Source: Spirochaetaceae bacterium (GTDB lineage Bacteria > Spirochaetota > Spirochaetia > SZUA-6 > Bin103). From it: a stretch of 37,301 bases of DNA. The notes under the pieces are model-generated. The model worked only from the letters and a program-made list of their open reading frames with translations. It was not told the origin of the DNA and made no database searches. Each line of letters opens with the position of its first letter. The first letter of the stretch is position 1. This document shows positions 19,836 to 37,301 of this stretch, one piece after another. A program made the position numbers and the translations under genes. The stretch spans positions 1 through 37,301 of the forward strand of contig JAPPGB010000112.1 in assembly GCA_028821475.1 (NCBI GenBank). The letters run 5' to 3'.

Positions 19836-20411
19836 ATGGCACTTGGCACCGGCCCTCCACGGAGGAGTGAGCCGGAGTTGACGGCGGACAGACTCGCCGG
19901 CTCCGTAAGCCATCTCCCGGTTGGCAAGCGGGTGGGCGGTGAGTTCTACATCCACCGCGATGCGTTGGCAAGGCACGATCCGACGTTGTTGCGCCTTGTG
20001 GCGGACTACGCTTTCGATGGAGGCGATGCGTTCGGTTGGAACGTGTGCAAGCTTTCACCGCGCCGTCACCGGGTCTCCTTGCTGTGGTACCCTTGCTTCC
20101 GAGAACGAGCTCATCCGGCTCTTGCCGCGGCCCTGACCGTGGATCTCAGGCGCGGAACGGGCCACGTGCGTCGCTACTCGGATCGGAGCAACCGTCCGGT
20201 CCTGCACCGCAAGGAGCTCCTCGTTGGGACCGCCGACCCGGACTACCAGCGGTTCGCGGCGCTGACACAACAGGAAGAACGCGCCGGTCTGTTCGAAACA
20301 CCCTCGATCATCGGGCACGAGCGTGGATGGGCAGCGCAGCTTGAACGGCGCGGACTGTCGATCCATGATCACCACCTGTGCCACGTGGGAGACGGAACAA
20401 AGCAGCGATAG
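19836..20411 (+). CDS. phosphorothioation-associated protein, N-terminal partner of the methyltransferase
   Basis: The 191-residue product contains PVGKRVGGEFYIHRDAL, LHRKELLVGTADPDY, a QQEERAGLF segment and IGHERGWAAQLERRGL. As I remember them, such blocks form the N-terminal region of longer phosphorothioation-associated putative methyltransferases, where they precede the Rossmann methyltransferase domain in one chain. Here the reading frame ends at TAG (20409-20411), which overlaps the GTG start of the next gene. The two may be made as separate, translationally coupled chains. A recent split is the alternative. Start: ATG 19836, or TTG 19878 behind a GGAGGAG site. The exact role is unknown. 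Confidence 0.65.
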   Translation: MALGTGPPRRSEPELTADRLAGSVSHLPVGKRVGGEFYIHRDALARHDPTLLRLVADYAFDGGDAFGWNVCKLSPRRHRVSLLWYPCFRERAHPALAAALTVDLRRGTGHVRRYSDRSNRPVLHRKELLVGTADPDYQRFAALTQQEERAGLFETPSIIGHERGWAAQLERRGLSIHDHHLCHVGDGTKQR

Positions 20412-21826
20412 TGGAAGTACGTCGTGACCGAACAGCGATAGCACGCTCCGACTTCTCGCGGCCTGTGCAACTGCTGATCGGCAACGGGGTGCTCGCCCCG
20501 GAGCGCACCTTCTTCGACTACGGCTGCGGCCTCGGCGACGACGTTCGTTTCCTGCGGTCCCTCGGCTACGTCGCACACGGGTGGGATCCGGCCCACCAAC
20601 CCGACGAGACGCTGCGGCGGGCAGCGGTGGTGAACCTCGGTTACGTGCTCAACGTCATTGAACGGCCAGCGGAGCGCGCCGGCGCGCTGCGGCGGGCGTT
20701 CGACCTTGCCGAGACCTGCCTCTGCGTCTCCGTCCTCATCGGCTCGGGATCCTACGCGGGCGAAGTACAGAACTACGGTGACGGAGTGCTTACGTCACGC
20801 AACACGTTTCAGAGGTACTACCAACAGGAGGAGGTGGCCAAGTACCTCGAAGAGGCGCTCGGCATCGTGCCTATTCCGCTCGAAGCCGGTGTGTTCCTCG
20901 TCTTCAGGCGCAGTGAAGATGCACACGCATTCCTCCTGAACCGTCTGCAACGATCGGTCCCGCTCATCCACGGCGTTCCACGCCAACGCAAGCGGCTCCT
21001 GCGAGCCGCCCTCCTCGATGCGTTCCAGACGGAGCACAAGGAGGACTGGGCGGCCTATGCGAACTTCGTGGCCACCCGCGGCCGTCCTCCGGCCAACGCC
21101 GAATCATCCGCGTTGCAGGCGGCCGCCGAGCATGGCTTGGCGCCGACCGATCTGTGGGAGGCTGCCGCGAACGAGCTTGCCGGGTCGCAACTCAGCGAGC
21201 AGCGTCGCCTCCGCACCAACCAGTACATCGTGTTCATGGCGATATGCCGCTTTCGGGGGGTGCCGAGACTTGGCGAATTGGCGGTCACCGCTCGTTTCGA
21301 CATCCGCTACTACTTCCGTAGTTACAGTCACCTCAAGGAATTGAGCAACAAGCACCTGTTTGCCGCGGGGGACAACGACAAGGTAGCGGAGCTGTGTGAA
21401 GACGCACCTGTCGGAGTGAACACGACCGACGGATACTTCGTCGCCCGGCGGGACCTCCCGCAGCTCGACCCCACCCTACAGATCTACGCACGCCTCGGAG
21501 AGCTGTTCTTCGGCGACCTCGACCGTATGGATGTCGTCAAGATCCACAAGACCTCGCCGCGGCTCTCCTTGTTCTCGCTCAACGACTTGAACGAGGCCGT
21601 GCCCCGGCTGAAGACGCGCGTGAAGATCGACCTGCAGGCCCAACAGGTGCGGTTCTTCGATCACGCCACCAACGTCGAACCGGAACTCCTTATAGGCAAA
21701 CAACTTCTGGGGTTCAAGCAAGGCAATACGGACGAGAGCGCCGTTATGGCGGGTAGGAGGATACTCATGCATGACGCTCCGTTCGGCCTGATCGTGCGGG
21801 AGAAAGACCTGCGGGGGCCGGCATGA
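20411..21826 (+). CDS. DNA phosphorothioation-associated putative methyltransferase
   Basis: After a short basic start (RRDRTAIARSDFSRPVQLL) comes a SAM-binding motif, TFFDYGCGLGDDVRF, near residues 33-47. AHGWDPAHQPD and VVNLGYVLNVIERP follow, all typical of the family described as DNA phosphorothioation-associated putative methyltransferase. A long C-terminal region of some 300 residues includes FDIRYYFRSYSHLKELSNKH. The family is found beside dnd/ssp genes, but its target is not established. The GTG start at 20411 overlaps the previous stop, and the frame also stays open back to 20378. It ends 97 bases before the cysteine desulfurase gene on the same strand. Confidence 0.82.
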   Translation: MEVRRDRTAIARSDFSRPVQLLIGNGVLAPERTFFDYGCGLGDDVRFLRSLGYVAHGWDPAHQPDETLRRAAVVNLGYVLNVIERPAERAGALRRAFDLAETCLCVSVLIGSGSYAGEVQNYGDGVLTSRNTFQRYYQQEEVAKYLEEALGIVPIPLEAGVFLVFRRSEDAHAFLLNRLQRSVPLIHGVPRQRKRLLRAALLDAFQTEHKEDWAAYANFVATRGRPPANAESSALQAAAEHGLAPTDLWEAAANELAGSQLSEQRRLRTNQYIVFMAICRFRGVPRLGELAVTARFDIRYYFRSYSHLKELSNKHLFAAGDNDKVAELCEDAPVGVNTTDGYFVARRDLPQLDPTLQIYARLGELFFGDLDRMDVVKIHKTSPRLSLFSLNDLNEAVPRLKTRVKIDLQAQQVRFFDHATNVEPELLIGKQLLGFKQGNTDESAVMAGRRILMHDAPFGLIVREKDLRGPA

Positions 21827-21922
21827 AGGTGGTTTTCGCTGGCACTCGCCTCTAGCGGGTTCCAGCGGAACGAAAGATGTGGTACTTTGTGGTTGCCCTT
21901 TGGTGGTTGCGGAGACGCGGCG

Positions 21923-23080
21923 ATGATCTATCTCGATAACAATGCCACGACATTCCTGATTCCGTCCGTGCGTGAGCGAATCGAGGAGCTGATCGCAGGG
22001 CCGATCGGCAACCCGTCGAGTCCGTACCGACTCGGTGCCGAGGCCCGCTACGCGCTCGAGCAGGCCCGCGACCGGGTGGCCGATGCACTCGGGACGCGTG
22101 CTGATTGTATCCTGTTCGTGGCGAGCGGGTCCGAGGCCAACGCCATGGCCCTCGCCACTGCTCAGTCCTGCGAACAGCAGCGCGACGAGATCCTTGTCAG
22201 CGAGGTCGAGCACTCATCGGTCACCGCCAACGCGACCTTGCTCGGCGCTCGCGGTTACAAGGTGCGCTACGTGTCCGTTGATAGAAACGGACGGATCGAT
22301 GTTGGCCAACTCGCCGACACGCTCGGCGAGCGCACCGCTGTCGTATCGGCACAGTGGGTAAACAACGAGACCGGCGTTACACAGCCGGTGGAGGACATAG
22401 CCGCGCTCTGCCGCGACGCCGGTGCACTGTATCACTGCGACGCCGCGCAGGCGTTGGGAAAGATCCCGATCGACGTCGAGGGGCAGGTTGGCGTGGATCT
22501 GATGACCGTCACCGCCCACAAGATCAACGGCCCCACTGGAGTCGGCGCCCTGTACGCTCGAGATCCGGCGCTGTTGCATCCGCTGGTGGGCGGTGGTGAC
22601 CAAGAACAGGGCCTCCGCGGTGGCACCGAGAACCTGATCGGCGCAGTAGGATTCGGCGTTGCTGCCGCGGAGCGGATGAGGACCTTCACCTCCGCGACCG
22701 CACTGATCGAGGCGTGCCGCGATACGTTCGAGCAGACGGTTCTCGCCGCGGAACCCCGACTACTGGTGAATGGCGATCTTGCGCACCGCGTCGGGAACAC
22801 GTCCAATCTGCAGTTCCCGGGCATCGACGGCGCCATGCTCGTCGCCGCGCTCGACGATCAGGAGATTTACTGTTCACAGAGTTCGGCGTGCACGACGGCG
22901 CGGCCGACACCCTCCCACGTACTCACAGCGATGGGGCTCACCGAATCCGAGGCGTACGCCTCGCTCCGCTTCTCTTTCGGTGTGCTCAACAAGGTGGAGG
23001 AAGCGCAGCGGGCAGCGGAGCAAGTGGTGGCGAGCTACCGGGACTTGGTCGAGCGCCTGCATCGGCTTGGGGTAGCGTGA
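21923..23080 (+). CDS. sspA: cysteine desulfurase of the phosphorothioation system (SspA/DndA type)
   Basis: This 385-residue class V aminotransferase fold starts MIYLDNNATT, the usual desulfurase opening. The PLP lysine is Lys200 in AHKINGPTGVG. The sulfur-carrying cysteine is most likely Cys323 in QSSACTTARPTPSH. The enzyme takes sulfur from L-cysteine as a persulfide and hands it to the PP-loop protein encoded at the end of this operon. Position at the head of the DUF4007/ATPase/PP-loop cluster identifies it as the system's own desulfurase rather than IscS. The ATG at 21923 was chosen because the family starts there. The DUF4007 gene begins one base after the stop. Confidence 0.9.
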   Translation: MIYLDNNATTFLIPSVRERIEELIAGPIGNPSSPYRLGAEARYALEQARDRVADALGTRADCILFVASGSEANAMALATAQSCEQQRDEILVSEVEHSSVTANATLLGARGYKVRYVSVDRNGRIDVGQLADTLGERTAVVSAQWVNNETGVTQPVEDIAALCRDAGALYHCDAAQALGKIPIDVEGQVGVDLMTVTAHKINGPTGVGALYARDPALLHPLVGGGDQEQGLRGGTENLIGAVGFGVAAAERMRTFTSATALIEACRDTFEQTVLAAEPRLLVNGDLAHRVGNTSNLQFPGIDGAMLVAALDDQEIYCSQSSACTTARPTPSHVLTAMGLTESEAYASLRFSFGVLNKVEEAQRAAEQVVASYRDLVERLHRLGVA

Positions 23081-23081
23081 C

Positions 23082-23996
23082 ATGCGGTTCGGTGGACACC
23101 AGACGTTCTACCTCCGCGAGGGCTGGCTGGCCAAGGGGCTTGCACTGCTCCTGGAAGATGCGAGCGCGTTCGACGACCCGTTCGTTGCCGATCAGCTCGG
23201 CGTGGGCCGCAATATGGCCAAGTCGATCGAGCACTGGCTGTTGGCGACCGGGCTGGCCATCAAGGCGGAGCGCCGGCGGCGACCCGAGAGGCCGCGCCTG
23301 AAGGCGACCGAGTTCGGCCAGATCATCGCCAAACACGATCCCTGGTTTCTCGATCCCGGCACCTGGTGGTTTCTGCACATCAATCTTGTGCGCAACCCGG
23401 CGCACGCCGCGACCTGGCACTGGTTCTTCAACTTCTACGCTTCGAGCAGGTTCGAACGGGCCACGGTCGTGGCACAGCTTGAGCAACACGAGCGCATGCG
23501 CTCACAGCGGGTGCCTTCGCCGAAGACGCTCGAACGCGACGTAAGCTGCTTCCTCGGCAGCTACGCCGTCGAAGTGCCCTACCGGCGCAAGGATCCAGAA
23601 GAAGAGATCGATTGCCCCTTTCAGGAGCTGCGCATCATTCGCCATTTCCGCGCATCGGGCTATTACGAGCTGAATCGGCGGCGCAAGTCGATATCCCCCC
23701 AGGTGTTGCTATACGCGCTGAAGGTGCCCGGCCTGATGTTCGACGCGCGCACCGGGATGGTCGACATCACGCTCCACGATCTGCACCGACTGGAAGGTGG
23801 CCCAGCACAGGTACTGGTACTCTCTGCCGACGCGCTATTCGAGCACTTGGTGGAGCTTGAGACCGGCGGCAGGGACGTGCCGTTCTCGATGAGCGGCCTG
23901 GCTGGTGATCGGCAGCTCCGGTACGAGTTTGTGCCCACGCCGGAGTTGGTGTCCCGGCACTTCGAGAGTGCGGCGGCGGAGTTGGCTTATGTCTAA
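23082..23996 (+). CDS. sspB: DUF4007 protein, SspB-type phosphorothioation nickase candidate
   Basis: The protein opens with MRFGGHQTFYLREGWLAKGL, the DUF4007 hallmark, and has the normal length of 304 residues. In SspABCD systems a protein that I remember as carrying this domain, SspB, nicks DNA and recognises the site at which sulfur replaces a backbone oxygen on one strand. Conserved-looking blocks include WWFLHINLVRNP around residues 100-112 and a W-H-W-F-F-N-F-Y stretch. It is packed between the desulfurase (1-base gap) and the ATPase gene, whose ATG overlaps its stop by 8 bases. Translational coupling is therefore likely. The Ssp assignment rests on family and context together. Confidence 0.82.
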   Translation: MRFGGHQTFYLREGWLAKGLALLLEDASAFDDPFVADQLGVGRNMAKSIEHWLLATGLAIKAERRRRPERPRLKATEFGQIIAKHDPWFLDPGTWWFLHINLVRNPAHAATWHWFFNFYASSRFERATVVAQLEQHERMRSQRVPSPKTLERDVSCFLGSYAVEVPYRRKDPEEEIDCPFQELRIIRHFRASGYYELNRRRKSISPQVLLYALKVPGLMFDARTGMVDITLHDLHRLEGGPAQVLVLSADALFEHLVELETGGRDVPFSMSGLAGDRQLRYEFVPTPELVSRHFESAAAELAYV

Positions 23997-26900
23997 CAAC
24001 GGCCGCTCGCATACGGTCGACGCACAGCAGATCCTGCGCTCCATCAACGTCACGCTTGACAACGCTACGCCGGAGCGCATCGCACACTTTGTCCCCACGG
24101 CGAAGAGCACCCGGCTACTGCGTTCCTGGCTCCTGCCGGGCCAATCGTCGAGCTACTTCGTGGTTGCCCCGTACGGTACCGGGAAGTCTCTTGCCGCTGC
24201 GTTCTTCCTCCAGGCCGTCGAGAACCTTGGGCAATCGCGCGACGTGCTCGGGCGTATCACAGAGCGATTCGCGAGCGTCGACGCTGATCTCGCTGATGTA
24301 TTGAGGTCGCGCGTCCATCCGGAGCAGGGGGCCCTGTTCGCTCAGCAGGGCGCAACGGTGGTGTTGTCCGGCTTTCAGCCGGATGTCCCGGCTGCCGTGC
24401 AAGCAGCGCTGCTGGCTTCGCTGAAGCGCGTCGGTCATCAGGAAGCAGCGAACCTGGTGTCACGCGCGCGAGTTACCTCGATGGACGCGGTGATCGCGCT
24501 CCTGAGCAAAATCCGTGAGCGGTACTGCCCCAATTCCATCGACCGCTTGGCGATCGTATGGGATGAATTCGGGCGCCATCTTGAGGAACTCGTCGTCCGG
24601 GGGACCTCGGCGAGCCTTGCCGACGTTCAGACCCTCGCCGAGTTCTGCGCTAGGACCAAGCGCGTGCCCATGACCCTTGCGCTGCTGCTGCATCAGGGGT
24701 TGTCCCGCTACGCGACGAACACGTCGGTGACGGTCCAGCGCGAGTGGAAGAAGATCGAGGGCCGCTTCGAGACGATTCAATTCGTCGATGACAGCAAAGA
24801 ACTGTACCAGTTGATCGGGCAGATCATGCGCCAGATCAGATTGAAAGGACATCCGCCGCGCAAAGTGCTCGATCGAGGCTTGCGGACGTGTCGGGACGTT
24901 GGCCTGTTCGGTGACTTCTCTCTCGAAGAGACGGAGCAGATGCTCTCGGATTCATATCCGCTTGAACCGATCACCCTTTACCTGCTACCTCGCGTGTCGT
25001 CCCGCGTGGCTCAGAACGAACGCACTCTGTTTACCTTCCTCTATTCGCTCGCTACGACGGAATCCATCTCGGGGCCGGTAACGCCCGACAGGTTGTACGA
25101 CTACTTCTCCGACGCCATGAGGGCTGACTCGTTGCCGGGCGGGAGCTACCACACGTGGCTGGAGACTGAGAGCGCCCTGCACAAGGCGAACGCTGCTCTC
25201 GACCAGAAGGCGTTGAAGTGTGCCTGCCTGCTTGGGCTCGGTTTGGTCGGGGAGCGTTCGCGCGTTAGCCGGAAGCTCCTGGAGTGCGCGGTATCGGGAT
25301 ATGGCGCCGTCAGGGCCGCCCGCGATAGTGTCAGACGCCTGATCTCCTCCAACCTGTTGCTCTACCGGCGCAATGCCGACAACGTCTCGATCTGGCACGG
25401 TACCGATCTCGATCTGCGTGGCCGTCTCGACCAGGAGAAGGAGCGGCTGGGTTCCCGGTTTGACCACGTCGCGTTTCTCGCATCGGAGGCTCCGCCTGCT
25501 CCTTGGAAGTCAGTCGAATACAACGTCGAATTCGGTACCGAGCGGTACTTCGAGAGTCGCTACCTAGCCGCTCATGCCATCCTGATGGCGGCAAGCGTAG
25601 GAGAGGTGCTGCCCCCAGCCTCGACGGCGGACGGAATGCTCTACGTCGTGATTCCGGAGTCCCATGAGGAGCGGGGAGAGGTGCGCAAGTACCTTGAGCG
25701 TCAGACGCTGGAGCCAGGCGTTGTGGTTGCCGTACCGCGACAGGCCGATCACGTGGCCGAAGCCGCACTGGACGTGTATGCGCTGCAGTTGCTGCGGCAG
25801 GACACGAGCTTGCTCGCTGAAGATCCGCTGGTCGAGCCTGAACTCGCTCAGATGATCGACGATGCACAGGGCTATCTGAACCTTCACCTTGCCCGCATGT
25901 TCCATCCGTCGGTGGAAGGACCGGAGTATCGGTGGCGCGACCACTACCATGCAATCATATCCCCGAAGCAGCTCCGCCAGTTTCTCTCGTCGATCATGCG
26001 CGAGGTATATCCGCTCACCCCACGCATCAAGAATGAGATAATCGTGCGGCGCCGGCCTCGACCGGCAATCGTGAATTCCCGTAAGAAGCTGATCTTGGGC
26101 ATACTGGAACGATCCGGTACCGATAACCTCGGACTGGAAGGATTCCGGCCCGACATGTCGATGTTCCGGACGGTACTGCTCCTTACGGGCCTCTATCGAA
26201 GCGACCTCAAGGATCCTGATGGCGAGGATGCCACGTGGCGGTACGCCGTACCCGAGGAACTGCAAGACGACGGGCTGCGCCAGATCTGGGAACGTATGCG
26301 GGACTTCCTGACTACACCGTCGAGCGATCCCAAGCCGCTGCCCGATCTCATTTCGATGCTCGGTAGCGCACCCTATGGTGTCCGGGGCGGTGTCGTGCCG
26401 ATTCTGCTCGCTGCCGGCATTCGAGCGTTTCCGGGTCCGATCAGCATCACCACCGTGGACGGCTCGTACGTGAGCGACCTGTTGCCTTCAACCATTGAGG
26501 AGATGGCCGCGCATCCAAACGAATACCAAGTCCTTGTTCCCAATCTGAGAGCCGCACAGCGGGAGTTCCTCGATCGGGTGGCCACGCTGTTCGGATACAT
26601 GGACGGGGAAGGGACGGAGGCCGATCCGGTGCGGCGCTGTCACGACGCGCTCGTGAACTGGCGCAGCACGCTCCCGTACAGCGCCCTTTCGTCTCGGTAC
26701 CTGTCTGGACGCGTGCGTTCATTCGGCCGGCTAATGACTGCTGCGGTTGATCCCTATCGGCTGTTGTTCGAAGCGGTGCCCAGGGTTCTCGACGTGCCAA
26801 ACACCGAAGTGGGCGGCCTGCTGCATGCGTTGTCCGAGTGCAAAGCAGAGATCGAGGGGGTTTTGCACTGGAACTACGAAGCCGCCTCCCGCGCCATCCG

Positions 26901-27387
26901 CTCGGCCTTCCCAGTGATTAACGGCGCCGACACATCCCTTCGCGAGATTGTAGGCGCCTGGGCTAAGTTCTTTCCGGGGACCGTCGTTCAAGAGATCAAA
27001 GATGGCATCGCCCAGGCTCTAATCTCCCGAGCTCGGATGCGCTATGATACGGACCAGGCTCTAGCTGACGCTCTGGCGGCGCTGCTCGTAGGTAAGCGCA
27101 TCAGCCGCTGGGAGGACAGTTCTATCGTCGTTTTCGAGCGAGAGCTCGGCGCTGTGATAAGACGCGTGGAGGACACAGTACTTAGCCTTTCGTCCGTCGC
27201 TGACGGACTCCGTACTCAATCGGTCGTCGATATAGCGACTTCACGGCTACAGACGTCGTTACGCGCAATTGCTAACGCCGTCGGAAGCGACGAGGCCCGT
27301 ACTATCGCCGTTCGCACACTAGAGCAGATCACCAAGGAGGGCACTGCCAATGGCTCACATACAAGAAGCGCTCGAAGCGCTCGCTGA
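23989..27387 (+). CDS. sspC: large P-loop ATPase, SspC-type
   Basis: This 1132-residue protein has a Walker A motif APYGTGKS at residues 60-67 and a Walker B-like LAIVWDEFGR near residue 188. Two thirds of the chain show no motif I know, apart from mixed helical segments. In SspABCD systems the ATPase SspC supports the modification reaction with SspB and SspD. Gene order (A-B-C-D), size and overlaps fit that. The ATG at 23989 overlaps the SspB stop; the frame is open further upstream but lies inside the sspB gene. The end overlaps the start of the PP-loop gene by 38 bases. Confidence 0.8.
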   Translation: MSNNGRSHTVDAQQILRSINVTLDNATPERIAHFVPTAKSTRLLRSWLLPGQSSSYFVVAPYGTGKSLAAAFFLQAVENLGQSRDVLGRITERFASVDADLADVLRSRVHPEQGALFAQQGATVVLSGFQPDVPAAVQAALLASLKRVGHQEAANLVSRARVTSMDAVIALLSKIRERYCPNSIDRLAIVWDEFGRHLEELVVRGTSASLADVQTLAEFCARTKRVPMTLALLLHQGLSRYATNTSVTVQREWKKIEGRFETIQFVDDSKELYQLIGQIMRQIRLKGHPPRKVLDRGLRTCRDVGLFGDFSLEETEQMLSDSYPLEPITLYLLPRVSSRVAQNERTLFTFLYSLATTESISGPVTPDRLYDYFSDAMRADSLPGGSYHTWLETESALHKANAALDQKALKCACLLGLGLVGERSRVSRKLLECAVSGYGAVRAARDSVRRLISSNLLLYRRNADNVSIWHGTDLDLRGRLDQEKERLGSRFDHVAFLASEAPPAPWKSVEYNVEFGTERYFESRYLAAHAILMAASVGEVLPPASTADGMLYVVIPESHEERGEVRKYLERQTLEPGVVVAVPRQADHVAEAALDVYALQLLRQDTSLLAEDPLVEPELAQMIDDAQGYLNLHLARMFHPSVEGPEYRWRDHYHAIISPKQLRQFLSSIMREVYPLTPRIKNEIIVRRRPRPAIVNSRKKLILGILERSGTDNLGLEGFRPDMSMFRTVLLLTGLYRSDLKDPDGEDATWRYAVPEELQDDGLRQIWERMRDFLTTPSSDPKPLPDLISMLGSAPYGVRGGVVPILLAAGIRAFPGPISITTVDGSYVSDLLPSTIEEMAAHPNEYQVLVPNLRAAQREFLDRVATLFGYMDGEGTEADPVRRCHDALVNWRSTLPYSALSSRYLSGRVRSFGRLMTAAVDPYRLLFEAVPRVLDVPNTEVGGLLHALSECKAEIEGVLHWNYEAASRAIRSAFPVINGADTSLREIVGAWAKFFPGTVVQEIKDGIAQALISRARMRYDTDQALADALAALLVGKRISRWEDSSIVVFERELGAVIRRVEDTVLSLSSVADGLRTQSVVDIATSRLQTSLRAIANAVGSDEARTIAVRTLEQITKEGTANGSHTRSARSAR

Positions 27388-28165
27388 TCCGTCGATCCGC
27401 CACATCGTTCCCGTGTCCGGTGGAAAGGACTCGGCTGCGCTTGCCATATACATGGCTCAGACGTACCCACAGATCCCGACCGAGTACGTATTCTGCGACA
27501 CCGACGCCGAACTGCCCGAGACCTACGACTACCTCGACCGTCTTGAAGCCCTGCTCGGAAAGCCAATCCAACGGATCAACGCCCTAGACTACATGAACGT
27601 GACTCGCAAACCTAGCCGGAAGGCTTTTGATTTCGTGCTCAACGAGATGTATTCGGGATTCTTGCCAAGCCCGCAGGCACGGTGGTGTACCCGAAAGCTA
27701 AAGATCGAACCATTCGAGAAGTACGTGGGGGCAGACACCGCGTTTAGTTACCTCGGCATTCGCGCTGATGAGGACCGTCAGGGCTATACCTCTTCGAAAA
27801 AGCCGCCGGCGTTCTCCGATCAATCCAATATCATTCCTGTATATCCACTCAAGGATGACGGCTTGGAACTTAGCGCCGTGGGGGACCTTCTCGAAACTTC
27901 AGGAATTGGGTTTCCGAGTTACTACCGGTGGCGCTCGCGTTCTGGTTGTTACTTTTGTTTTTATCAGCAGCTCGGGGAATGGCAAGGTCTACGGCAAAGA
28001 CATCCAGATCTGTTCGAGCGCGCAAAAAAGTATGAACGAGATGCTGGAACTAAGAAGTACACCTGGGTACAAGGTCGCACGTTAGCCGATATCGAGACGA
28101 TGCAGAGAAGGTACCCGGCTCCCTCAATCGATGATGTCGAAGGCTGTGCGATCTGTCACCTATAG
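27350..28165 (+). CDS. sspD: PP-loop ATP pyrophosphatase/sulfurtransferase, SspD type
   Basis: The PP-loop motif SGGKDS (residues 23-28) marks the ATP pyrophosphatase/PAPS reductase fold. Cysteines at 113 (RWCTRKLK), 200 and 203 (SGCYFCF), and 266 and 269 (CAIC) could hold an iron-sulfur cluster, as known for DndC. The enzyme would adenylate the DNA backbone and pass on sulfur from the desulfurase. The 271-residue length fits SspD better than the longer DndC. A GGAGG site inside sspC precedes the ATG. The gene is AT-richer than sspA-C. It ends 13 bases from the converging PLD gene. Confidence 0.85.
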   Translation: MAHIQEALEALADPSIRHIVPVSGGKDSAALAIYMAQTYPQIPTEYVFCDTDAELPETYDYLDRLEALLGKPIQRINALDYMNVTRKPSRKAFDFVLNEMYSGFLPSPQARWCTRKLKIEPFEKYVGADTAFSYLGIRADEDRQGYTSSKKPPAFSDQSNIIPVYPLKDDGLELSAVGDLLETSGIGFPSYYRWRSRSGCYFCFYQQLGEWQGLRQRHPDLFERAKKYERDAGTKKYTWVQGRTLADIETMQRRYPAPSIDDVEGCAICHL

Positions 28166-28178
28166 ATACGCCGAATAC

Positions 28179-29096
28179 TCAAATCCGCTTAGCTTGACCA
28201 AGTTTCACCGACTCTGTGGTGATACCATAGTGACCTGGCAAGAAATACTCTAGCCATCTTTGCAATGCCGTCATCACCTCTTGTAGAGCATACTTATCAG
28301 GATCTGCCCCAATCTGAACAAGCATTTCGCGAAACATATTCTCGTTGATATCCTCTCCTTGTTGTATACGCTTCGTCGTAAGTTCGACGATCCGAGAGTG
28401 TGAGAGTATACACGCGACCCACGACCGAAAGTCGGACTCGTTTAGCCCGACAGGTACCGAAAATCTACCAAGTTCAGCCCGCATTGCGGCGATAGCTGTC
28501 CGTAACACAAGGTTCTCTGCTCCACTGTATAATAGATACATTTCCTCCGGATTCTTTATAGCAGGCACCCAACTAGTAGGCAGCAGCACGGAATCATCGG
28601 AATCTCCTAGCAAAGCAGACAGGAATTGCGGGTCTTTATCGGCGCTAAGGACAAGGTCTTGAAGACGATCCCGATGGGCGTCCGTAGCTTCGACCGCATG
28701 ATCAAAAAGACGCTCAAGGAACGCGGTGACAGCTGGATCTCTCCGCTCCGTACGCACGAGAAGTTCGAGATTCGCGGGCTGTCTCCACCCGAGCGCGGTA
28801 TCAGTTATGTTCGCCGACCCGACTAGGCAAGCATCGTCCGCCAAATACAACTTCGCGTGCAGGTCGTTCTGTAATAGAAGGGGTATATTCCGAGAGCGCG
28901 TCGCAAGCAATACATCTATATCTGACACACCAGCAATTACCTCGGTAGGGCGCCATCGCGTGACGACCCGGACGCAAATATCCGGGTGAACGGCATCAAT
29001 CAGCCGTTGGAATGGAGACAGGCGAATAAACGGCGCGGCGATCAAGACTTCTCGACGAGCTCCGGCAAGGAATTTGAGGAGGTCGGCGCCAAGCAT
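28179..29096 (-). CDS. PLD-family nuclease, third gene of the convergent module
   Basis: The 305-residue protein carries one HKD motif: His80 and Lys82 in LHAKLYLADD, then GSAN at residues 93-96. A single HKD motif implies a dimer, as in Nuc-type endonucleases. The N-terminal part has the usual strand and helix pattern (EVLIAAPFIRLSP). The C-terminal 150 residues are helical and unassigned. It would be the DNA-cutting part of the three-gene module encoded from 32548 downwards. Its ATG follows the GHKL ATPase stop by 3 bases. The link to the phosphorothioation genes is positional, since the two operons converge. Confidence 0.82.
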   Translation of the reverse strand: MLGADLLKFLAGARREVLIAAPFIRLSPFQRLIDAVHPDICVRVVTRWRPTEVIAGVSDIDVLLATRSRNIPLLLQNDLHAKLYLADDACLVGSANITDTALGWRQPANLELLVRTERRDPAVTAFLERLFDHAVEATDAHRDRLQDLVLSADKDPQFLSALLGDSDDSVLLPTSWVPAIKNPEEMYLLYSGAENLVLRTAIAAMRAELGRFSVPVGLNESDFRSWVACILSHSRIVELTTKRIQQGEDINENMFREMLVQIGADPDKYALQEVMTALQRWLEYFLPGHYGITTESVKLGQAKRI

Positions 29097-29099
29097 ACG

Positions 29100-30962
29100 C
29101 TATTCGTAGGTACGTAGAAAGTCGCGGGCTTCGCGGCCCCAATCCATCCTAACGTCTTCTGCGGCCGACTTCTGGTCAAGCGGCAACTTGTCTTCATAAC
29201 GCGCCCACGCGATAAGCAGCATTTTTAAGGAGAAAGACGCTTTGTTGAGCCGGTCGGAGAGGTCGTTGTCCGAATCGTCGTCGAGAACGTCGAAGAGGTG
29301 CGCATGGACGGGGTGATGGGCGTTCAAAAAGACTTCGATTACATCCCCGACTGATTTGACATGGAAAAACGCTTGGGTGTCGGTGCCGGGGACAGATTGA
29401 AAGAGGACCCGTCGGCCTTCAATGACCGTCTGGTGAGCTCGACCTTGGGCGACCTCAGGAGTGACTTGTTGATCGGTTAGCGATTGGGCGATCTGGGCCT
29501 CTTTTTCTTCCGGCGGCAGTGGATCGGCGTGATCGGTGGTGCCGGTGCGTCCTTGAGTGTTGATGACGTCAGTGCCTACCTGCTCAACATCAGTCCCGGT
29601 ATCGGGATGACGAGTCCCACCTCTTGCGCCTCGCACGATGCTTTTTCGCTCGTCTCGCATTGCGGAGATCTGTTCCTTGATCCACGTCCAGACTTCCATC
29701 AGGTGGGCTCGGTGATCGCCTGTTTCGCGTAATCGATCGAGGACTGACCCGTAAGTACGCTCGTCGTCGTAAGCGATGTCTCTCCAGTCAAAACCAGCGC
29801 CGTTTACGAAACCGTGCGCGTGTTGTTTGTTGTTCACCACGCCAAAGACCTCGTCAAGAGATGGGTCGAACGTCACTTCGACCGACCACCAGCGTTCCTG
29901 TGGCTCATGGTTGTTGACCCACGCGGTGCTTAGCTCAAGTTCCCGCCGGCCACGTACGATCGACACACCTAAGTTCCGGTTAGCATCCTTTCCCCATGGT
30001 GAATCACCCGGATTTCTATAGGAGCTTGGCCAACGGACGCTTGATCTCTGCTGGTTGATGGCATCAGTGAGTGCCATAGAACAGACCACTCGAATTTCAC
30101 CGCCCTGAACTTGCCCGTTGTCGTCGGAAAAGGTCACCGGCCACCGCCTTTCACTGAAGTTCCGGAACATTGGACGATCATGGAATGGAGCGGCGTTGGA
30201 TGACGGATACATTAGGTAGAGGGGATCGTTCGGTTTACACTCATTCACCGCGTCGTCCTGCAAGCGATAACTGCCGTCCTCATTCCGAGTTGCGAGTGCG
30301 AGCGTTATAGTGCAAGCGTTCCGTGGATCCGAGATGTAATGCCTGTACAAGCGTCCACACAAGCGACCTGTATGTTGAAGGGTCGTCTTTCCACCTTGCC
30401 ACTTTACCCTGTCCAATCGACTCCAGACCACCAGAGTCCCGGTCAGCTCTTCGGTCGCGGAAACAACAGATCTCCAACGTTGCGGCACGGAATCGTGGAC
30501 TGGTTCAGATACTTCCGTGGCCCCGCGCTTGATCTCATCAAGATCAAGATAACATCTCCACGCGTTATCACATCCATTTTGCCACGTCCAGATATCGACC
30601 CGTCGGCACTGTGACATAGACGAGTTTGGTAGCCCAACTCCGAACCGTCCGATCCTCGTGCGCGCAGCCCTAGTACCATCGCCAAACCGAAGAGAACGCC
30701 GCAACGTCCGTTGATCCATTCCGGTACCATCATCCGCGACTGCGATCTCATTCGTGCGAGCCCGCGAAAAAGGAATCGTGGGATCCCGAGGCGCGTCGAC
30801 TACTATCACTTCAACGTGCCCAGCGTCGGCGTCCAGTGAATTATCAATTAGCTCCGCTAGCGCATGATCTGTGTCCTTGTAGCCGCTATCTCGCAGCGCA
30901 TCCGCGATCAACGTTGACGGAAAGATCGCAAAATCAAGCTCTCGTTGATCTATTACGCCCAT
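29100..30962 (-). CDS. GHKL (Hsp90-like) ATPase, second gene of the module
   Basis: The Bergerat ATP-binding fold is clear near the N-terminus. The N-box ELIDNSLDA is at residues 37-45, VADDGTGM at 75-82 and the glycine lid GRFGVGLPNSS at 105-115. Members such as MutL, Hsp90 and MORC proteins use ATP-driven clamp closure. The remaining 450 residues probably form transducer and C-terminal coiled regions, and I can assign no nuclease to them. I chose the ATG at 30962 because GGGAGGA lies 4 bases upstream. This start overlaps the helicase stop by 10 bases, so expression is coupled. The gene is AT-richer than the chromosome around it. Confidence 0.87.
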   Translation of the reverse strand: MGVIDQRELDFAIFPSTLIADALRDSGYKDTDHALAELIDNSLDADAGHVEVIVVDAPRDPTIPFSRARTNEIAVADDGTGMDQRTLRRSLRFGDGTRAARTRIGRFGVGLPNSSMSQCRRVDIWTWQNGCDNAWRCYLDLDEIKRGATEVSEPVHDSVPQRWRSVVSATEELTGTLVVWSRLDRVKWQGGKTTLQHTGRLCGRLYRHYISDPRNACTITLALATRNEDGSYRLQDDAVNECKPNDPLYLMYPSSNAAPFHDRPMFRNFSERRWPVTFSDDNGQVQGGEIRVVCSMALTDAINQQRSSVRWPSSYRNPGDSPWGKDANRNLGVSIVRGRRELELSTAWVNNHEPQERWWSVEVTFDPSLDEVFGVVNNKQHAHGFVNGAGFDWRDIAYDDERTYGSVLDRLRETGDHRAHLMEVWTWIKEQISAMRDERKSIVRGARGGTRHPDTGTDVEQVGTDVINTQGRTGTTDHADPLPPEEKEAQIAQSLTDQQVTPEVAQGRAHQTVIEGRRVLFQSVPGTDTQAFFHVKSVGDVIEVFLNAHHPVHAHLFDVLDDDSDNDLSDRLNKASFSLKMLLIAWARYEDKLPLDQKSAAEDVRMDWGREARDFLRTYE

Positions 30963-32548
30963 ACGTCCTCCCAATTTAAAAACGCATCCGATACATCACC
31001 AAATCCTGGTAAACTCGTATCTACAACTGTAACTACTTCGCAACGGCTAGCTCCGCCCGCCTTAGGGCCACGCAACACTCGACCGACCATCTGACTATAT
31101 AGTACCAACGACTTGGTTGGTCGATCAATGATCGCCGCTGTTGCACGTGGCGCGTCGAATCCTGTAGTCAACACGCCTACGTTTACCAAGACAATCGGCC
31201 TACCCCCAGGTCGCCTAAAACGACTGATTATCCGATCTCGCTGGTTGACGTTCGTGTTCGCCGACACGACGTCCGATCTACATCCGGTGGCACTACAAAC
31301 TCTAGATAACAGCTTTGCATTTTGTACGGAATATGTAAACACAAGAACCCGATTGTGTGCTCGTATCAGGTGTAGAATCCGTCGAATAACCGCTAGGTTA
31401 CGATGCATATCGCTATCGACGATTCTGCGTATCCGGCTAGGAACATCGCGGGACCGTGCTACCTCCGATCTATCCTCTTCAGACAACGGAGTAGTCACCT
31501 CCATCCGTGTGAACGTCACGGAGGCCAAATAACCAGTTTCGATGAGCCTTGTCACCGGATTGACTCCATCGCCGAAGTCGATAGTAGCCTTGTTATTCCC
31601 AAACATTTCGGCAACTCGCACGTCTTCGTCTGGATCATTCCATGTTCTCCCAGGCGTGGCTGACAATCCGAGTAGACCGGTTCGGAGATTACGGCGAACT
31701 AACGTGTCAACTAGATCCTTGTACGTGGGTGCGGTCGCGTGGTGAGCTTCGTCGAACACGACAAGGCTCGTGCGGTCTCCAAGGGACCAAAGCATTGAGC
31801 GGTCGGTTGCATAAGATCGGAGCTTTGCCAAGCCGGCCACAACTATGCCGTCTATAGTGTCTTGAGGCGGCGGTGGATGCCGTCCCCAGAATCGATGGCA
31901 ACGAACGGGCCGGTCACCAACATCTTTCCACGTATCGTCAAACTCTGAAGCGGCTTGCTCAAGAAGTTCGCGTGTCTCGGCAACCCAGATTACCAGAGTG
32001 GGTGTGCGAACTCGTAGGTGCGACGCTACGATGCTCATTGCGGTTCGTGTTTTCCCGCACCCGGTGGGGAAATGGAGCAATATGTGAGGAGGAACGTCAT
32101 TGTACAGAATGTTCTCAACGGCAGAAGCAGCTCGCTTCTGGTGAGGGAACAGCGGTCGTCTGACATCCACAGGGGAGGGGTCGTAGTGATCTACTGAGTC
32201 GAGGACTTCGACTTGTCCAAAGAACTGAAGTATCGCCCGCCGTTGGCTGTTGGGGAGTGGGTCTACACTTCGCAGTTTCGATATGCTTGCTCCTACACGG
32301 CCTTCGAACTCAGATGCCTTGTGGGGCGGGAGTGCTTCGAGCAACAATTCACGTAGTGGCGGGTGGGAAACGACGGTGTCTATATCGACAAAGTGGCTCA
32401 GCGTTTGGTATCGTCGAGGGCTTTGAAGCAGGTCAGGACGTATGGCACGAACTAGCGCGACGGTACCTGGCATAGTTAAGCTTTCTACGGTATGTTCGCT
32501 GGCGCGTTCAAGCAATGCCGACACGCGCATACCTGGGGAGTTGTTCAT
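30953..32548 (-). CDS. SF2 DEAD/DEAH helicase, first gene of the module
   Basis: Motifs in order are the Q-like RPLFPHQ (131-137), Walker A FPTGCGKT (160-167), DEAH (266-269), LSATPGR (from 295) and motif VI QMVGRVLRG near residue 485. The 531-residue length and motif set resemble type I/III restriction and DISARM-like helicases that translocate on double-stranded DNA. It heads an operon with a GHKL ATPase and a PLD nuclease. That combination fits the restriction arm of a phosphorothioation defence, possibly the SspFGH type. I cannot assign the SspF, G or H names gene by gene. The start is ATG 32548. Confidence 0.87.
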   Translation of the reverse strand: MNNSPGMRVSALLERASEHTVESLTMPGTVALVRAIRPDLLQSPRRYQTLSHFVDIDTVVSHPPLRELLLEALPPHKASEFEGRVGASISKLRSVDPLPNSQRRAILQFFGQVEVLDSVDHYDPSPVDVRRPLFPHQKRAASAVENILYNDVPPHILLHFPTGCGKTRTAMSIVASHLRVRTPTLVIWVAETRELLEQAASEFDDTWKDVGDRPVRCHRFWGRHPPPPQDTIDGIVVAGLAKLRSYATDRSMLWSLGDRTSLVVFDEAHHATAPTYKDLVDTLVRRNLRTGLLGLSATPGRTWNDPDEDVRVAEMFGNNKATIDFGDGVNPVTRLIETGYLASVTFTRMEVTTPLSEEDRSEVARSRDVPSRIRRIVDSDMHRNLAVIRRILHLIRAHNRVLVFTYSVQNAKLLSRVCSATGCRSDVVSANTNVNQRDRIISRFRRPGGRPIVLVNVGVLTTGFDAPRATAAIIDRPTKSLVLYSQMVGRVLRGPKAGGASRCEVVTVVDTSLPGFGDVSDAFLNWEDVWA

Positions 32549-32591: not shown

Positions 32592-33098
32592 GGGTCGCAG
32601 AATTCCGATTGTAATGCACAGAATGGGCACGGTGAGAAGTACGATCAGCGAAAGCTTCAGATCGCGATGTCGAGAATGAACGAGCCCGACGTGCAAGGTC
32701 GAAGGATCTTGTCCTTAGTATATTTATATTCAAAGCGGGTTTCAAACTACACTAATCCCTCCAGGATCATACGATTGGTGAATGTCCGACGTAGCGCAGA
32801 TGCCTCAGCAAGGGGTAGCGGAGATGCCCTCGTCAGTGCTATTGTCACGTGATCGTCGCTTCTTGACAAGTGGTCCACTCAATTTATCTCTGGTGCGTGA
32901 GGGTCGAATGCGAGGCGCTATTAGGAGTGTCACCGGGCCGTTCGACTTGTGCCGGGCAGTTGGGCTGATCGAGCGGGATCGCCCCTTGGCGGCTGCGCGG
33001 ATCGGTTGGCGCGGATGGACGAGTGCCTAGTCCGAGGACGTACTTCGGGACAGATTGCGTTGGACTGCTTGCGAAGTTCATGTAATATTCAAGTTATC

Positions 33099-34250
33099 GT
33101 GGGAAGATACACGCGATTACTCGGGTTGCGGAGCGATCCGCGGGCGACGTTCTTCCTATGGGGGCCGCGGCAGGCGGGCAAGAGCACGTTGCTCCGAGCC
33201 GAGTTTCCCGATGTGCCGTGGGTCGACCTGCTGTTGCCGGCGACCTACCGGCGCTATCTGCAGGCGCCGGAGCTGCTGATCGAGGAGCAGCGCCGGCACG
33301 GTGCCGGCTTCATCGTGATCGATGAGGTGCAGAAGGTGCCGGAGCTGCTCGATGTGGTGCACTGGCTCATGGAGCGGCGCGGCGTGCACTTCGCGTTGTG
33401 CGGATCGAGCGCCCGCAAGGTGCGGCGCGGGCAGGCCAACCTCCTGGGAGGGCGCGGCGAGCGGCGTGAACTGCACGGGCTGTCGGCGATGGAGATCGGA
33501 CCGGGAGTGGACCTGGTCAGGCTGCTGAACCACGGCTACCTGCCGCCCATCTACGACGCGGAGCGCCCGCTGCCGCTGCTCGACGCGTACGTCTCCCAGT
33601 ACCTGAAGGAGGAAATCGCCGCCGAGGGGTTGGTCCGGCGCCTGCCTGCCTACGCGGATTTCCTCGCGCTCGCCGCCCTCTCCGACGGAGACGTGGTGAA
33701 CTACACGACCATCGCGCGCGACACCGGCACCTCCAGCCAGACGGTGCGGGGCTACTTCGAGATCCTGGAGGATACGCTCCTGGGACGGTTCCTGCCCGCG
33801 TATCGCAGGCGGCCGAAGCGGCGGGTGGTGGCGGCGCCGAAGTTCTACTTCGGGGACGTGGGAGTGGTGAACTTCCTGGCCCGGCGCGGGGCGCTGCAGC
33901 CGGGCGGCGAGCTGTTCGGCAAGGCATTCGAGAACTGGGTGTTCCACGAACTGTGCTGCTACAACTCGTACCGCGCGCGCTACGCCGACTTCTTCTACTG
34001 GCGGCTCAGTTCGGGCATCGAAGTCGACTTCGTGGTCAATCACATCGATTGCGCGGTGGAGGCGAAGGCGGTCAGCCGGGTGCGCGCCGATCACGCCAAG
34101 GGGCTGCGCGAACTGAAGGCCGATCACCCGGAGACCGGCCGCCGCATCGTCGTGTCCCTGGACCCCCACGACCGCACCACCGAAGACGGCATCGACCTGC
34201 TCCACCACACCACCTTCCTGCAGCAACTCTGGGACGGCGCGCTGTTCTGA
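33099..34250 (+). CDS. AAA ATPase with DUF4143 nuclease-like domain
   Basis: The Walker A motif GPRQAGKST is at residues 22-30 and Walker B FIVIDEVQK follows about 50 residues later. The C-terminal half has FGKAFENWVFHEL and then IEVDFVV with EAKA, the PD-(D/E)xK-like core of the DUF4143 family. Length is about 383. The family is widespread in accessory regions, and its role is not known. The start is uncertain: GTG at 33099 fits the family's opening, while ATG at 33015 is also in frame. Codon use is GC-rich like the chromosome and unlike the helicase operon beside it, so it probably did not arrive with that operon. Confidence 0.85.
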   Translation: MGRYTRLLGLRSDPRATFFLWGPRQAGKSTLLRAEFPDVPWVDLLLPATYRRYLQAPELLIEEQRRHGAGFIVIDEVQKVPELLDVVHWLMERRGVHFALCGSSARKVRRGQANLLGGRGERRELHGLSAMEIGPGVDLVRLLNHGYLPPIYDAERPLPLLDAYVSQYLKEEIAAEGLVRRLPAYADFLALAALSDGDVVNYTTIARDTGTSSQTVRGYFEILEDTLLGRFLPAYRRRPKRRVVAAPKFYFGDVGVVNFLARRGALQPGGELFGKAFENWVFHELCCYNSYRARYADFFYWRLSSGIEVDFVVNHIDCAVEAKAVSRVRADHAKGLRELKADHPETGRRIVVSLDPHDRTTEDGIDLLHHTTFLQQLWDGALF

Positions 34251-34436: not shown

Positions 34437-35591
34437 ATGACGCGCGTCCCAGTGTCCCCGGAGATGCTGCGCTGGGCCTGTGAACGTGCCGGCTTCGACG
34501 TTGCGCGCCTTGCCAAGCGCATCCCACAGCTCCCGGCCTGGGTCCGGCGCGAGAGACAACCAACGCTGAAGCAGCTTGAGAAGCTTGCCAAACTCACTCA
34601 TACGCCGCTCGGCTACCTCTTCCTTCCCGAGCCCCCGGCCGAACGCCTTCCCGTGCCTGACTATCGCACCGTGGCGGGCACGACGCGAGGCACGCCGAGC
34701 CCCGATTTGCTCGATACGCTCTACACGATGCAACGTCGACAGGAGTGGCTACGGGAATCCCTCGTCGAGAACGACGTGGCCCCACTGACTTTCGTGGCAA
34801 GTGCCCGCCTTGCCGATGAGCCGGAAGTTGTGGGTCGCGAGATGCGACGGACGCTCGGTCTCGGCGAAGGATGGGTGCTGGCAGTGGCCACTTGGCAGGT
34901 CGCAGTGAGCGAGTTGCGTCGCACGATCGAGCAACTCGGCGTGATGGCGGTGATCAATGGGGTCGTGGGGAACAACACCTCGCGCCGGCTGAGCGTAGAG
35001 GAATTCCGTGGCTTCGCGCTTACCGACTCCTATGCGCCGCTGATCTTCGTGAACGGTGCCGATGCGAAGTCGGCACAGATGTTCACGCTTGCTCACGAGT
35101 TGGCTCACGTATGGCTCGGCTCGGAAGGCGTTTCCGGCTTTGACGGCCTTCTCCCCCGCGGCACGGACGTGGAGGACTGGTGCAACCGGGCGGCGGCGGA
35201 ATTCCTTGCACCAGCACAGGAGGTTAGGGCGCATTGGGCGGAAGTCAGACGCCGGGCCAAGCCCTTCGATGCTCTCGCCCGGGCGTTCAAGGTGAGCCCC
35301 GTGGTGGCCGCCCGCCGTGCTCTCGACCTGCATCTCGTTGAGCGCAGCACCTTTGCCGACTTCTACGAGCGTTACGTCAATCGCGGCCGCAAGGAGAGTG
35401 GCGCCGAACCGAGTGGAGGCGGCGATTTCTACAACAACCAGAACACGCGTATAGGCGAACTGTTTGCGACCCAGGTGCTGCGCGCGGCGATCGAGGGCCG
35501 TGTCGGTTTCAAGGAAGCCTATGACCTGACAGGGCTGCGCGGAGGAACCTTTCAGAAGTACGCCCGTAGGCTAGGCGTGAATCTCCCGTGA
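34437..35591 (+). CDS. second XRE-ImmA/IrrE protein
   Basis: A helix-turn-helix region near the N-terminus (LRWACERAGFDVARLAKRI) is followed by KQLEKLAKLTHTPLGYLFLP. The zinc-peptidase motif HELAH lies near residues 220-224 and a WCNRAAAEFLAP segment comes about 40 residues later. The order and the spacing match the protein at 11254, but the sequences differ well beyond a recent duplication. GGGGAG precedes the ATG. The downstream DUF4411-like gene starts almost at its stop, so this is the antitoxin/regulator of a pair. The toxin partner here is truncated, so the regulator may be left on its own. Confidence 0.87.
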   Translation: MTRVPVSPEMLRWACERAGFDVARLAKRIPQLPAWVRRERQPTLKQLEKLAKLTHTPLGYLFLPEPPAERLPVPDYRTVAGTTRGTPSPDLLDTLYTMQRRQEWLRESLVENDVAPLTFVASARLADEPEVVGREMRRTLGLGEGWVLAVATWQVAVSELRRTIEQLGVMAVINGVVGNNTSRRLSVEEFRGFALTDSYAPLIFVNGADAKSAQMFTLAHELAHVWLGSEGVSGFDGLLPRGTDVEDWCNRAAAEFLAPAQEVRAHWAEVRRRAKPFDALARAFKVSPVVAARRALDLHLVERSTFADFYERYVNRGRKESGAEPSGGGDFYNNQNTRIGELFATQVLRAAIEGRVGFKEAYDLTGLRGGTFQKYARRLGVNLP

Positions 35592-35966: not shown

Positions 35967-37301
35967 TCAAGAAAGCTGGTGAGAACTATCGGCTCTCCAC
36001 CGATTTGATCCCATGATCTCCTCTACTCCGACGATGATGCGAATAGATTCGTCTCTGGTAACTGTCGAATTCGTGTGTGCAATATTATTTCGTACCTTCA
36101 ACCAACTCAAGATCTGCTGAGTCTCGTACTTGGCGAGATAACCTTGCGCCTTAGCCGTCTCTACTAGTTTCCTAAGGGACATAAATCGGTCGCTTTTCGG
36201 TGACGGAATGTCGATCCGGTACCGCAACTTTGTTTCCAGGTATGTTATGGCTGACAGGACTGCTGCACTGTATTCCTGTTGATTGAACAAGCGATGCGCA
36301 TCCCGCGCCAAGGCTGGGTCGGTCTTCTCCAATCCATCTCGAAACCAACGATCCAGTTCGCGGAGGAAATTCTCTGTATCTATAACTTCCGGAGCTGGTC
36401 TTTGAATTACGTCGATACCTCTCATGTACGTCGGCGTCTTCGTTCCGTCTTCTATGACAGCGAGTACTGATGAAGAATCTCTCCGCAGATCTGCGACAAG
36501 AACTGTCTCCAGTGACGCTCCATTGGACGCATCTATCACGACGTAAGCCGCTTGATGAATAAGGGCTTCCTGCATAGCCACCTCGCTTCCAGGTGGAGAA
36601 ACGACATCGTTAACCGTAACCGGTACAAGCCCGAGAGATCGAATAACCGGGAACACATGTTGGCGGTAGAATGGCCGGACGGTTAGCGGTAGAACGAAGT
36701 GACACAGGTTGTTTGCGGCGTCGGCAGGAAGCTGAGATTGTTGCAGCAACTGCTCTTCAAGGATGTGACTATGAGAAATGATCTGTTGGAGCCAATGTTG
36801 CTTCAACTCCTGAAATGTGTTACGAAGCACCTCACCGTATCTGTTCTTATCCTGAGCCAAGTTGATTGCGGTTATCCCACGGCGTTCAAAACGGGCCACT
36901 TCCGCCAAGCTAGCTCCGACACACAACGCGTAGGCGCGAGGTCTATCTCTGCCCAAACGCTCGCCAATCATTTCCCATAACTGTCGGAAGTCAGGGTCGT
37001 CGAAGCTATACCCAATTAGTACTGGAGTTCTCGTAATAAGAAGATTCGCAAGAAACGTCGCGACAATCGGAAAGCGAGAAAGAAATGTATCGTAATCACG
37101 CTCGGTGACGATCAAGCGTTGGGAGTGGCTGAGGTCGCCGTGTAGTTTTAACAGGTTTACTTGTGAGCCCGCGAAGTTCGTTGACAATTGATCTTCGCCA
37201 ATTAGCGGATTACAGCGTCTCGAAACGAGTGCATACTGTTGCTCAAGTAGAGTCGAGGAGAGGCGCGCTCTGCCGCAGGCGGAGGGAGTAGCTGTTGCCG
37301 G
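35967..37301 (-). CDS. SIR2-domain defence protein with HEPN-like C-terminus (5' end outside the window)
   Basis: The frame is open to the window edge, giving 444 visible residues without a needed start. At 37100-37230 it reads RRCNPLIGEDQLS and LLKLHGDL, then VLIGYSFDDPDFRQLW, typical of bacterial SIR2-like NAD-cleaving domains. The middle part, with VFPVIRSLGLVPVTVND and AAYVVIDASNGASLETV, resembles a nucleotide-binding alpha/beta domain (TIR/deoxyribosyltransferase-like). The C-terminal 130 residues are helical and contain RNNIAH, an Rx4H motif of HEPN RNases. Known SIR2 defence proteins kill infected cells by destroying NAD. The missing 5' end holds the catalytic N-terminal part. It is AT-richer than the chromosome. 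Confidence 0.82.
   Translation of the reverse strand, partial: PATATPSACGRARLSSTLLEQQYALVSRRCNPLIGEDQLSTNFAGSQVNLLKLHGDLSHSQRLIVTERDYDTFLSRFPIVATFLANLLITRTPVLIGYSFDDPDFRQLWEMIGERLGRDRPRAYALCVGASLAEVARFERRGITAINLAQDKNRYGEVLRNTFQELKQHWLQQIISHSHILEEQLLQQSQLPADAANNLCHFVLPLTVRPFYRQHVFPVIRSLGLVPVTVNDVVSPPGSEVAMQEALIHQAAYVVIDASNGASLETVLVADLRRDSSSVLAVIEDGTKTPTYMRGIDVIQRPAPEVIDTENFLRELDRWFRDGLEKTDPALARDAHRLFNQQEYSAAVLSAITYLETKLRYRIDIPSPKSDRFMSLRKLVETAKAQGYLAKYETQQILSWLKVRNNIAHTNSTVTRDESIRIIVGVEEIMGSNRWRADSSHQLS

Follow-up and report, generated by a model that had tools for sequence, protein, structure and literature searches.

A helicase, MORC-like GHKL ATPase, and PLD nuclease trio linked to sspBCD is probably a further restriction arm of Ssp phosphorothioation systems

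In a survey of 2,678 sspBCD sets, 2,211 were without sspE and sspFGH, and further restriction partners were asked about (PMC8092258). The locus described here raises this question in concrete form: what is the role of three genes, encoding an SF2 helicase, a GHKL ATPase, and a PLD nuclease, that end beside Ssp phosphorothioate (PT) modification genes in a 37,301-nucleotide stretch of DNA from a Spirochaetaceae bacterium (contig JAPPGB010000112.1; hereafter the window)? The initial annotation had proposed that the trio is the restriction partner of these genes, either as SspFGH or as a new variant that pairs a MORC-like GHKL ATPase with a PLD nuclease. Because the trio accompanies the same sulfur-tagging genes in every relative that we found, it probably belongs to a known anti-phage defense, as an attack arm not described before. 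We consider it likely that the Ssp PT system has in it a dedicated restriction arm, distinct from both SspE and SspFGH and probably the third such arm, in which a translocase and a nuclease would be gated by a MORC-like clamp.

The Ssp modification core is complete in the window, where PADLOC identified together, all on the forward strand, sspA (cysteine desulfurase; 21887-23080, 1e-110), sspB (DUF4007; 23082-23996, 2.8e-94, and 9e-60 with Pfam DUF4007), sspC (ATPase; 23989-27387, 1.2e-149, with an ATG start and an 8-base overlap with sspB), and sspD (PAPS-reductase family; 27350-28165, 1.5e-92), the single SspD match of the genome. A gene for a phosphorothioation-associated putative methyltransferase precedes them (20378-21826, forward strand; NCBIfam TIGR04096, 1.1e-110, 370.6 bits against a cut-off of 150), and this type of methyltransferase is also annotated near trio and ssp genes at locus L014 and at L040, a more distant set described below. 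The trio lies on the reverse strand, with the GHKL gene (29100-30962, 620 aa counted from the ATG; one copy in the genome) between those for the helicase (30953-32548, 531 aa) and the PLD nuclease (28179-29096, 305 aa). The helicase stop and the GHKL start share a 10-base overlap (30953-30962, reverse strand, ATGGGCGTAA) with a GGAGG ribosome-binding site shortly upstream, an arrangement by which translation of the two genes appears to be coupled; 3 bases separate the GHKL gene from the PLD gene, and the converging stops of the PLD gene and sspD are 13 bases apart (28166-28178). Direct reading of the sequence confirmed this tight coupling, the coordinates, and the proximity to sspD, as initially annotated. 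Promoter and terminator scans gave results at chance level.

The GHKL protein matches HATPase_c_3 above the Pfam cut-off (4e-21), and human MORC2, MORC3, and MORC4 were the only PDB matches to its profile. Its layout comprises a GHKL domain (residues ~15-195), an S5-like region extending to ~395, and a C-terminal region (~395-620); the N, G1, G2, and G3 boxes and the S5 lysine, K379, are intact and were present at each of the 18 loci compared. The segment GVSIVRGRREL fits the MORC S5 signature GhXhhpXXRhl (Iyer 2008) except that a glutamate follows the arginine where the signature has a hydrophobic residue. On its sequence, taking the four GHKL ATP-binding motifs and the S5 catalytic lysine as the criterion, we classify the protein as a MORC-like GHKL ATPase. 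Its AF2 model, built with a 5-row alignment, reached a pLDDT of 57.8 and was left out of the fold search. The helicase matches Pfam ResIII (7e-18) and Helicase_C (2e-13), both above the Pfam cut-offs, carries intact motifs I, II (DEAH), III, V, and VI (K166, D266-E267, R490) behind an N-terminal stretch of ~130 residues without a known domain, and its profile retrieved RadD (1.5e-39) and then SauUSI (1e-18) from the PDB; these matches assign it to the SF2 DEAH helicases/translocases of the RadD/SauUSI/PbeA-like kind. The PLD protein (PLDc_2, 3e-8, above the Pfam cut-off) has a single, intact HKD motif of the HxK/GSxN type plus E111 (H80, K82, N96, E111) and would therefore be expected to work as a dimer. 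In its AF2 model (pLDDT 82.8) the C-terminal half is helical, and a VIA-align comparison covering residues 1-147 matched SauUSI best (Z 15.6, 138 residues, 2.2 A), followed by Nuc (Z 14.8), with Z values of 12.9 for BfiI and 11.3 for the NgoAVII R-protein. All key catalytic motifs are thus in place, as had been noted from the sequence, and helicase and PLD protein both resemble SauUSI, as if SauUSI had been split over two proteins with a MORC-like ATPase gene placed between them.

The resemblance of the trio to SspABCD-SspFGH of Vibrio anguillarum FF-93 is one of arrangement, the latter likewise consisting of three genes, including one for an ATPase, beside sspBCD in a mobile, PT-linked setting. 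No homologous proteins are shared: models for SspF, SspG, and SspH gave no match to the trio, although the same models hit their positive control, the Agrobacterium plasmid pAtCFBP7129b (locus L015), at E<1e-200, and SspH is FtsK-like (PMC8092258), an ATPase type missing from the trio. This one plasmid, covered by loci L015 and L127, carries a helicase-GHKL pair with an exchanged nuclease, SspFGH, and sspABCD within ~20 kb; the trio-type module and SspFGH are therefore different and compatible. The reading of the trio as SspFGH is thus almost certainly wrong, and this part of the initial annotation has to be given up. Among plasmid records, SspG-type modules occurred in 33, all also SspD-positive, and the trio in 12, with an overlap of 1 record against 4.6 expected (P 0.018, uncorrected for phylogeny), which resembles what alternative arms sharing a single modification core would show.

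Other known systems share parts of this architecture. SspE and DndI are NTPase-controlled nucleases answering to PT, as we propose by analogy for the trio, but each is a single DUF262-HNH protein and absent from the window; SspE models found no match among the window proteins scanned and, elsewhere in the genome, nothing beyond weak DUF262-type matches (best 1.3e-11), all on contigs other than that of the window. DndCDEA-PbeABCD is likewise PT-linked, and PbeA combines PLD and SF2 helicase; there, however, the two are fused, the partners are a CxC ABC ATPase and the DndE-like PbeD, no GHKL protein is present, and the modification is Dnd, not Ssp (PMC6459918, PMC10853773). In the trio they are separate genes with the GHKL gene between them, the helicase finds its best PADLOC match in PbeA but only in the helicase part (6e-23), and the 16 window proteins scanned, which do not include every small ORF, gave no match to PbeB, PbeC (the CxC ABC ATPase), or PbeD. 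SauUSI is an SF2 plus PLD endonuclease that translocates by ATP and cleaves and shreds DNA (PMC7913695), as the helicase and PLD protein might; unlike the trio, it is a single polypeptide that includes a methyl-reading domain, and no GHKL protein takes part. CglI/NgoAVII, as in the trio, has PLD nuclease and SF2 ATPase in separate proteins, which act as a complex, the trio being known from separate genes; it differs in having B3 DNA-reading and Z1 domains and a C5 methyltransferase and in lacking a GHKL protein (PMC4267653), and Pfam found neither B3 on the trio PLD protein nor Z1 on its ATPase. In prokaryotic MORC/paraMORC restriction-modification neighborhoods, too, a GHKL-S5 ATPase stands beside an SF2 helicase and a nuclease, in some cases HKD; these were described with DNA methylases, in a text that does not mention phosphorothioate (Iyer 2008, PMC2292703). 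Named-family models remained far from their cut-offs: MzaB of MZA (73.8 bits against an equivalog cut-off of 850, ATPase domain only), the PT restriction enzyme TIGR04095 (41.6 bits against 600, helicase core only), and the DrmC equivalog of DISARM (23.8 bits against 133). No model in Pfam, NCBIfam, or PADLOC describes the trio as a system, and the literature searched, outside subscription papers, held nothing tying sspBCD or PT to a GHKL/MORC-helicase-PLD trio.

The distribution of the trio argues for its association with Ssp. Of 72,556 plasmid records, 12 held a GHKL homologue covering at least 80% of the query and 86 were matched by SspD, and all 12 fell among the 86 (chance estimate ~3e-36, a naive figure that ignores shared ancestry); a 13th plasmid with a partial GHKL match, from Treponema saccharophilum, also carries the trio and sspBC. 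The window PLD protein as query retrieved exactly 10 plasmid records, every one within the same 12. Across 393 genomes of the phylum, GHKL was found in 3 and SspB in 16, the 3 lying within the 16 (P 6e-5). In IMG/VR, helicase, PLD, and sspBCD accompanied the GHKL gene at all four full-length loci, and a separate helicase scan returned sspB, sspC, and sspD at 6/6 close loci (four on the same contigs as the GHKL loci) and sspB or sspC at 0/74 distant SF2 helicase loci. The PLD alignment was too variable for use as a query. A single cyanobacterial GHKL as the IMG/VR query gave no matches, and a single-sequence GHKL scan of genome contigs gave only distant GHKLs. When independent loci were counted once, sspB and sspC stood alongside a full-length GHKL gene in 18 of 18, spanning Spirochaetota, Alphaproteobacteria, Cyanobacteria, Bacteroidota, and uncultured sources, the SspD-type gene being divergent at the two Treponema loci. 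All 18 of these GHKL proteins fall into a single clade (support 99/98), and at the four loci inspected for related GHKLs outside it neither the trio nor sspBCD was present. Levels of co-variation, uncorrected for shared ancestry, were r 0.57-0.77 among the trio proteins and r 0.64 between GHKL and SspB.

The genetic link between the trio and Ssp is therefore strong, and the co-occurrence expected from the initial annotation was borne out, the trio never having been seen without phosphorothioation genes in the three collections. The convergent orientation, on the other hand, holds at the window locus without being conserved in the module: trio and sspBCD converge in the window, L007, and L012 but are co-directional in L009, L011, L013, and L014, a variation showing that the linkage outlasts rearrangement. 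A restriction or abortive system independent of Ssp, ATP-dependent and of the PbeA/SauUSI/CglI-like or MORC restriction-modification kind, which merely shares defense islands with sspBCD and does not read PT, would be in line with the known MORC/SF2/nuclease neighborhoods without PT, with the fact that no PT-reading domain was recognized by Pfam in the three proteins, and with base composition, the GC content of the trio (0.53-0.54; positions 28001-32000 compared with the rest) being below that of sspBCD (0.59-0.64) and of the flanks (0.66-0.73 on the left), which hints at a separately acquired module. Chance sharing of islands, however, would not yield linkage of 12/12, 3/3, and 4/4, nor confine one GHKL clade to Ssp loci while its relatives, where inspected, are found without sspBCD, and we regard this alternative as quite improbable. 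Within the clade, the window GHKL groups with proteobacterial and cyanobacterial copies and not with those of Treponema, which suggests horizontal transfer. A genome from the class of the window MAG (G194) also has a trio/ssp locus, with scores equal to those of Treponema saccharophilum plasmid pTS1. DndB/DGQHR-like proteins are encoded between or beside trio and sspBCD at L010 (8007-10343), L014 (7848-10154), and L007 (14761-16014).

Variation within the clade bears on what the third gene does. At two alphaproteobacterial loci, L015 (9028-10107) and L018 (13798-14877), it encodes, in place of a PLD protein, a product of 359 aa that shows a D...QxK pattern and in its L015 copy matches a PADLOC "Endonuclease effector" model (1.7e-10); we take it to be a putative Cap4-like, PD-(D/E)XK-type endonuclease. 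The helicases of both loci are degenerate, having lost the DEAH box and other motifs, whereas the GHKL motifs are intact, which means that not every member can depend on translocation. Because this pair is nested among PLD-type members in the tree, nuclease replacement is the simplest reading, and the swap supports a view of the third gene as the effector and of the GHKL protein as the constant core. If the trio instead maintained PT DNA, by repair or by clearing damage at PT sites, its composition would be familiar from mismatch repair, which also uses GHKL, helicase, and nuclease, and the solved helicase closest to that of the trio, RadD, functions in DNA repair; the exchange of the PLD nuclease for a Cap4-like effector, a mobile, plasmid-borne distribution, and near-exclusivity with SspFGH all fit a phage-directed effector better, and such a role seems very unlikely. 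A variant of our preferred explanation, with overlapping confidence, is that the trio holds or blocks phage DNA without cutting it, arresting replication as reported for PbeABCD. MORC proteins compact DNA, and PbeABCD was reported to act without viral DNA cleavage despite the PLD domain of PbeA (PMC6459918), but the HxK/GSxN residues are retained at all 16 PLD-type loci and the PLD nuclease has been swapped for another nuclease rather than lost; we consider arrest without cutting unlikely, if somewhat less so than an independent system.

GHKL ATPases close as dimers upon ATP binding, and SspE is an enzyme that PT switches on. PT switches off both SspFGH (PMC8092258) and DndI (PMC11662687). VcSduA, a GHKL-nuclease fusion, needs both its ATPase and its nuclease for phage defense and has been modeled as a clamp (PMC12137116), and CglI, an R2N2 enzyme assembled from PLD and SF2 proteins, requires extensive ATP hydrolysis for cleavage (PMC4267653). 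These precedents lead to a model with the helicase and a PLD dimer as the engine, a MORC-like clamp as its gate, and PT as the mark of self. In such a model, SspABCD would tag the backbone of host DNA with sulfur, and an ATP-driven translocating endonuclease, like SauUSI but distributed over two polypeptides, may assemble from the SF2 helicase and the PLD nuclease. The MORC-like protein could close on DNA as a dimeric clamp when it binds ATP and, depending on whether PT is encountered, license or block the nuclease. Unmodified phage DNA would then be entrapped, tracked, and cut, and PT-marked self DNA would release or stall the complex. The restriction partnership proposed in the initial annotation accordingly stands in its genetic part, through exclusive linkage in several phyla, and in its second form, a new variant combining a MORC-like ATPase with a PLD nuclease, which agrees with all data; PT-dependent restriction itself we infer. 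Which protein would sense PT, and whether PT would inhibit or activate cleavage, is at this stage conjecture, candidate sensors being the regions without a known domain, namely the helicase N-terminus (~1-130), the GHKL C-terminus (~395-620), and the C-terminal half of the PLD protein. We tentatively suggest, without giving it the better chance, that the clamp and not the nuclease reads or transmits the PT signal and can license exchangeable nucleases, either PLD or, with a degenerate helicase, Cap4-like.

The trio is a concrete and widespread candidate for a further restriction partner, being found in 12 of the 86 SspD-bearing plasmids and 3 of the 16 SspB-bearing genomes of the phylum. With it, the question of whether such partners exist can be tested directly. 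The locus further offers a bacterial setting in which a MORC-type ATPase is linked to a mark on the DNA backbone, which is relevant to how action on marked DNA arose among MORC proteins; should the clamp read or transmit the PT signal, this would be the first case of a MORC-family ATPase linked to such a mark. Recruitment to sspBCD may have happened more than once, since in Rhodobacteraceae SC52 (L040, 8135-13054) a distant GHKL-hypothetical-helicase-PLD set with a different gene order, its GHKL outside the clade, lies beside sspBCD and is possibly a second, independent recruitment. The window holds further genes around the Ssp locus. An ATPase gene matching the PADLOC candidate family PDC-S01 (32949-34250, forward strand; 4e-53) adjoins the trio, and a SIR2-type protein with a ThsA/Dsr2-like NADase part and a HEPN-like C-terminus, likely another defense gene, is encoded at the window edge (35967-37187, reverse strand). 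Two M78 (IrrE-like) metalloproteases and a Fic protein (SoFic, 2e-118) are encoded at 11254-12498 (forward), 34437-35591 (forward), and 7683-8834 (reverse), both metalloproteases being RmrA-like and one carrying an XRE-type HTH.
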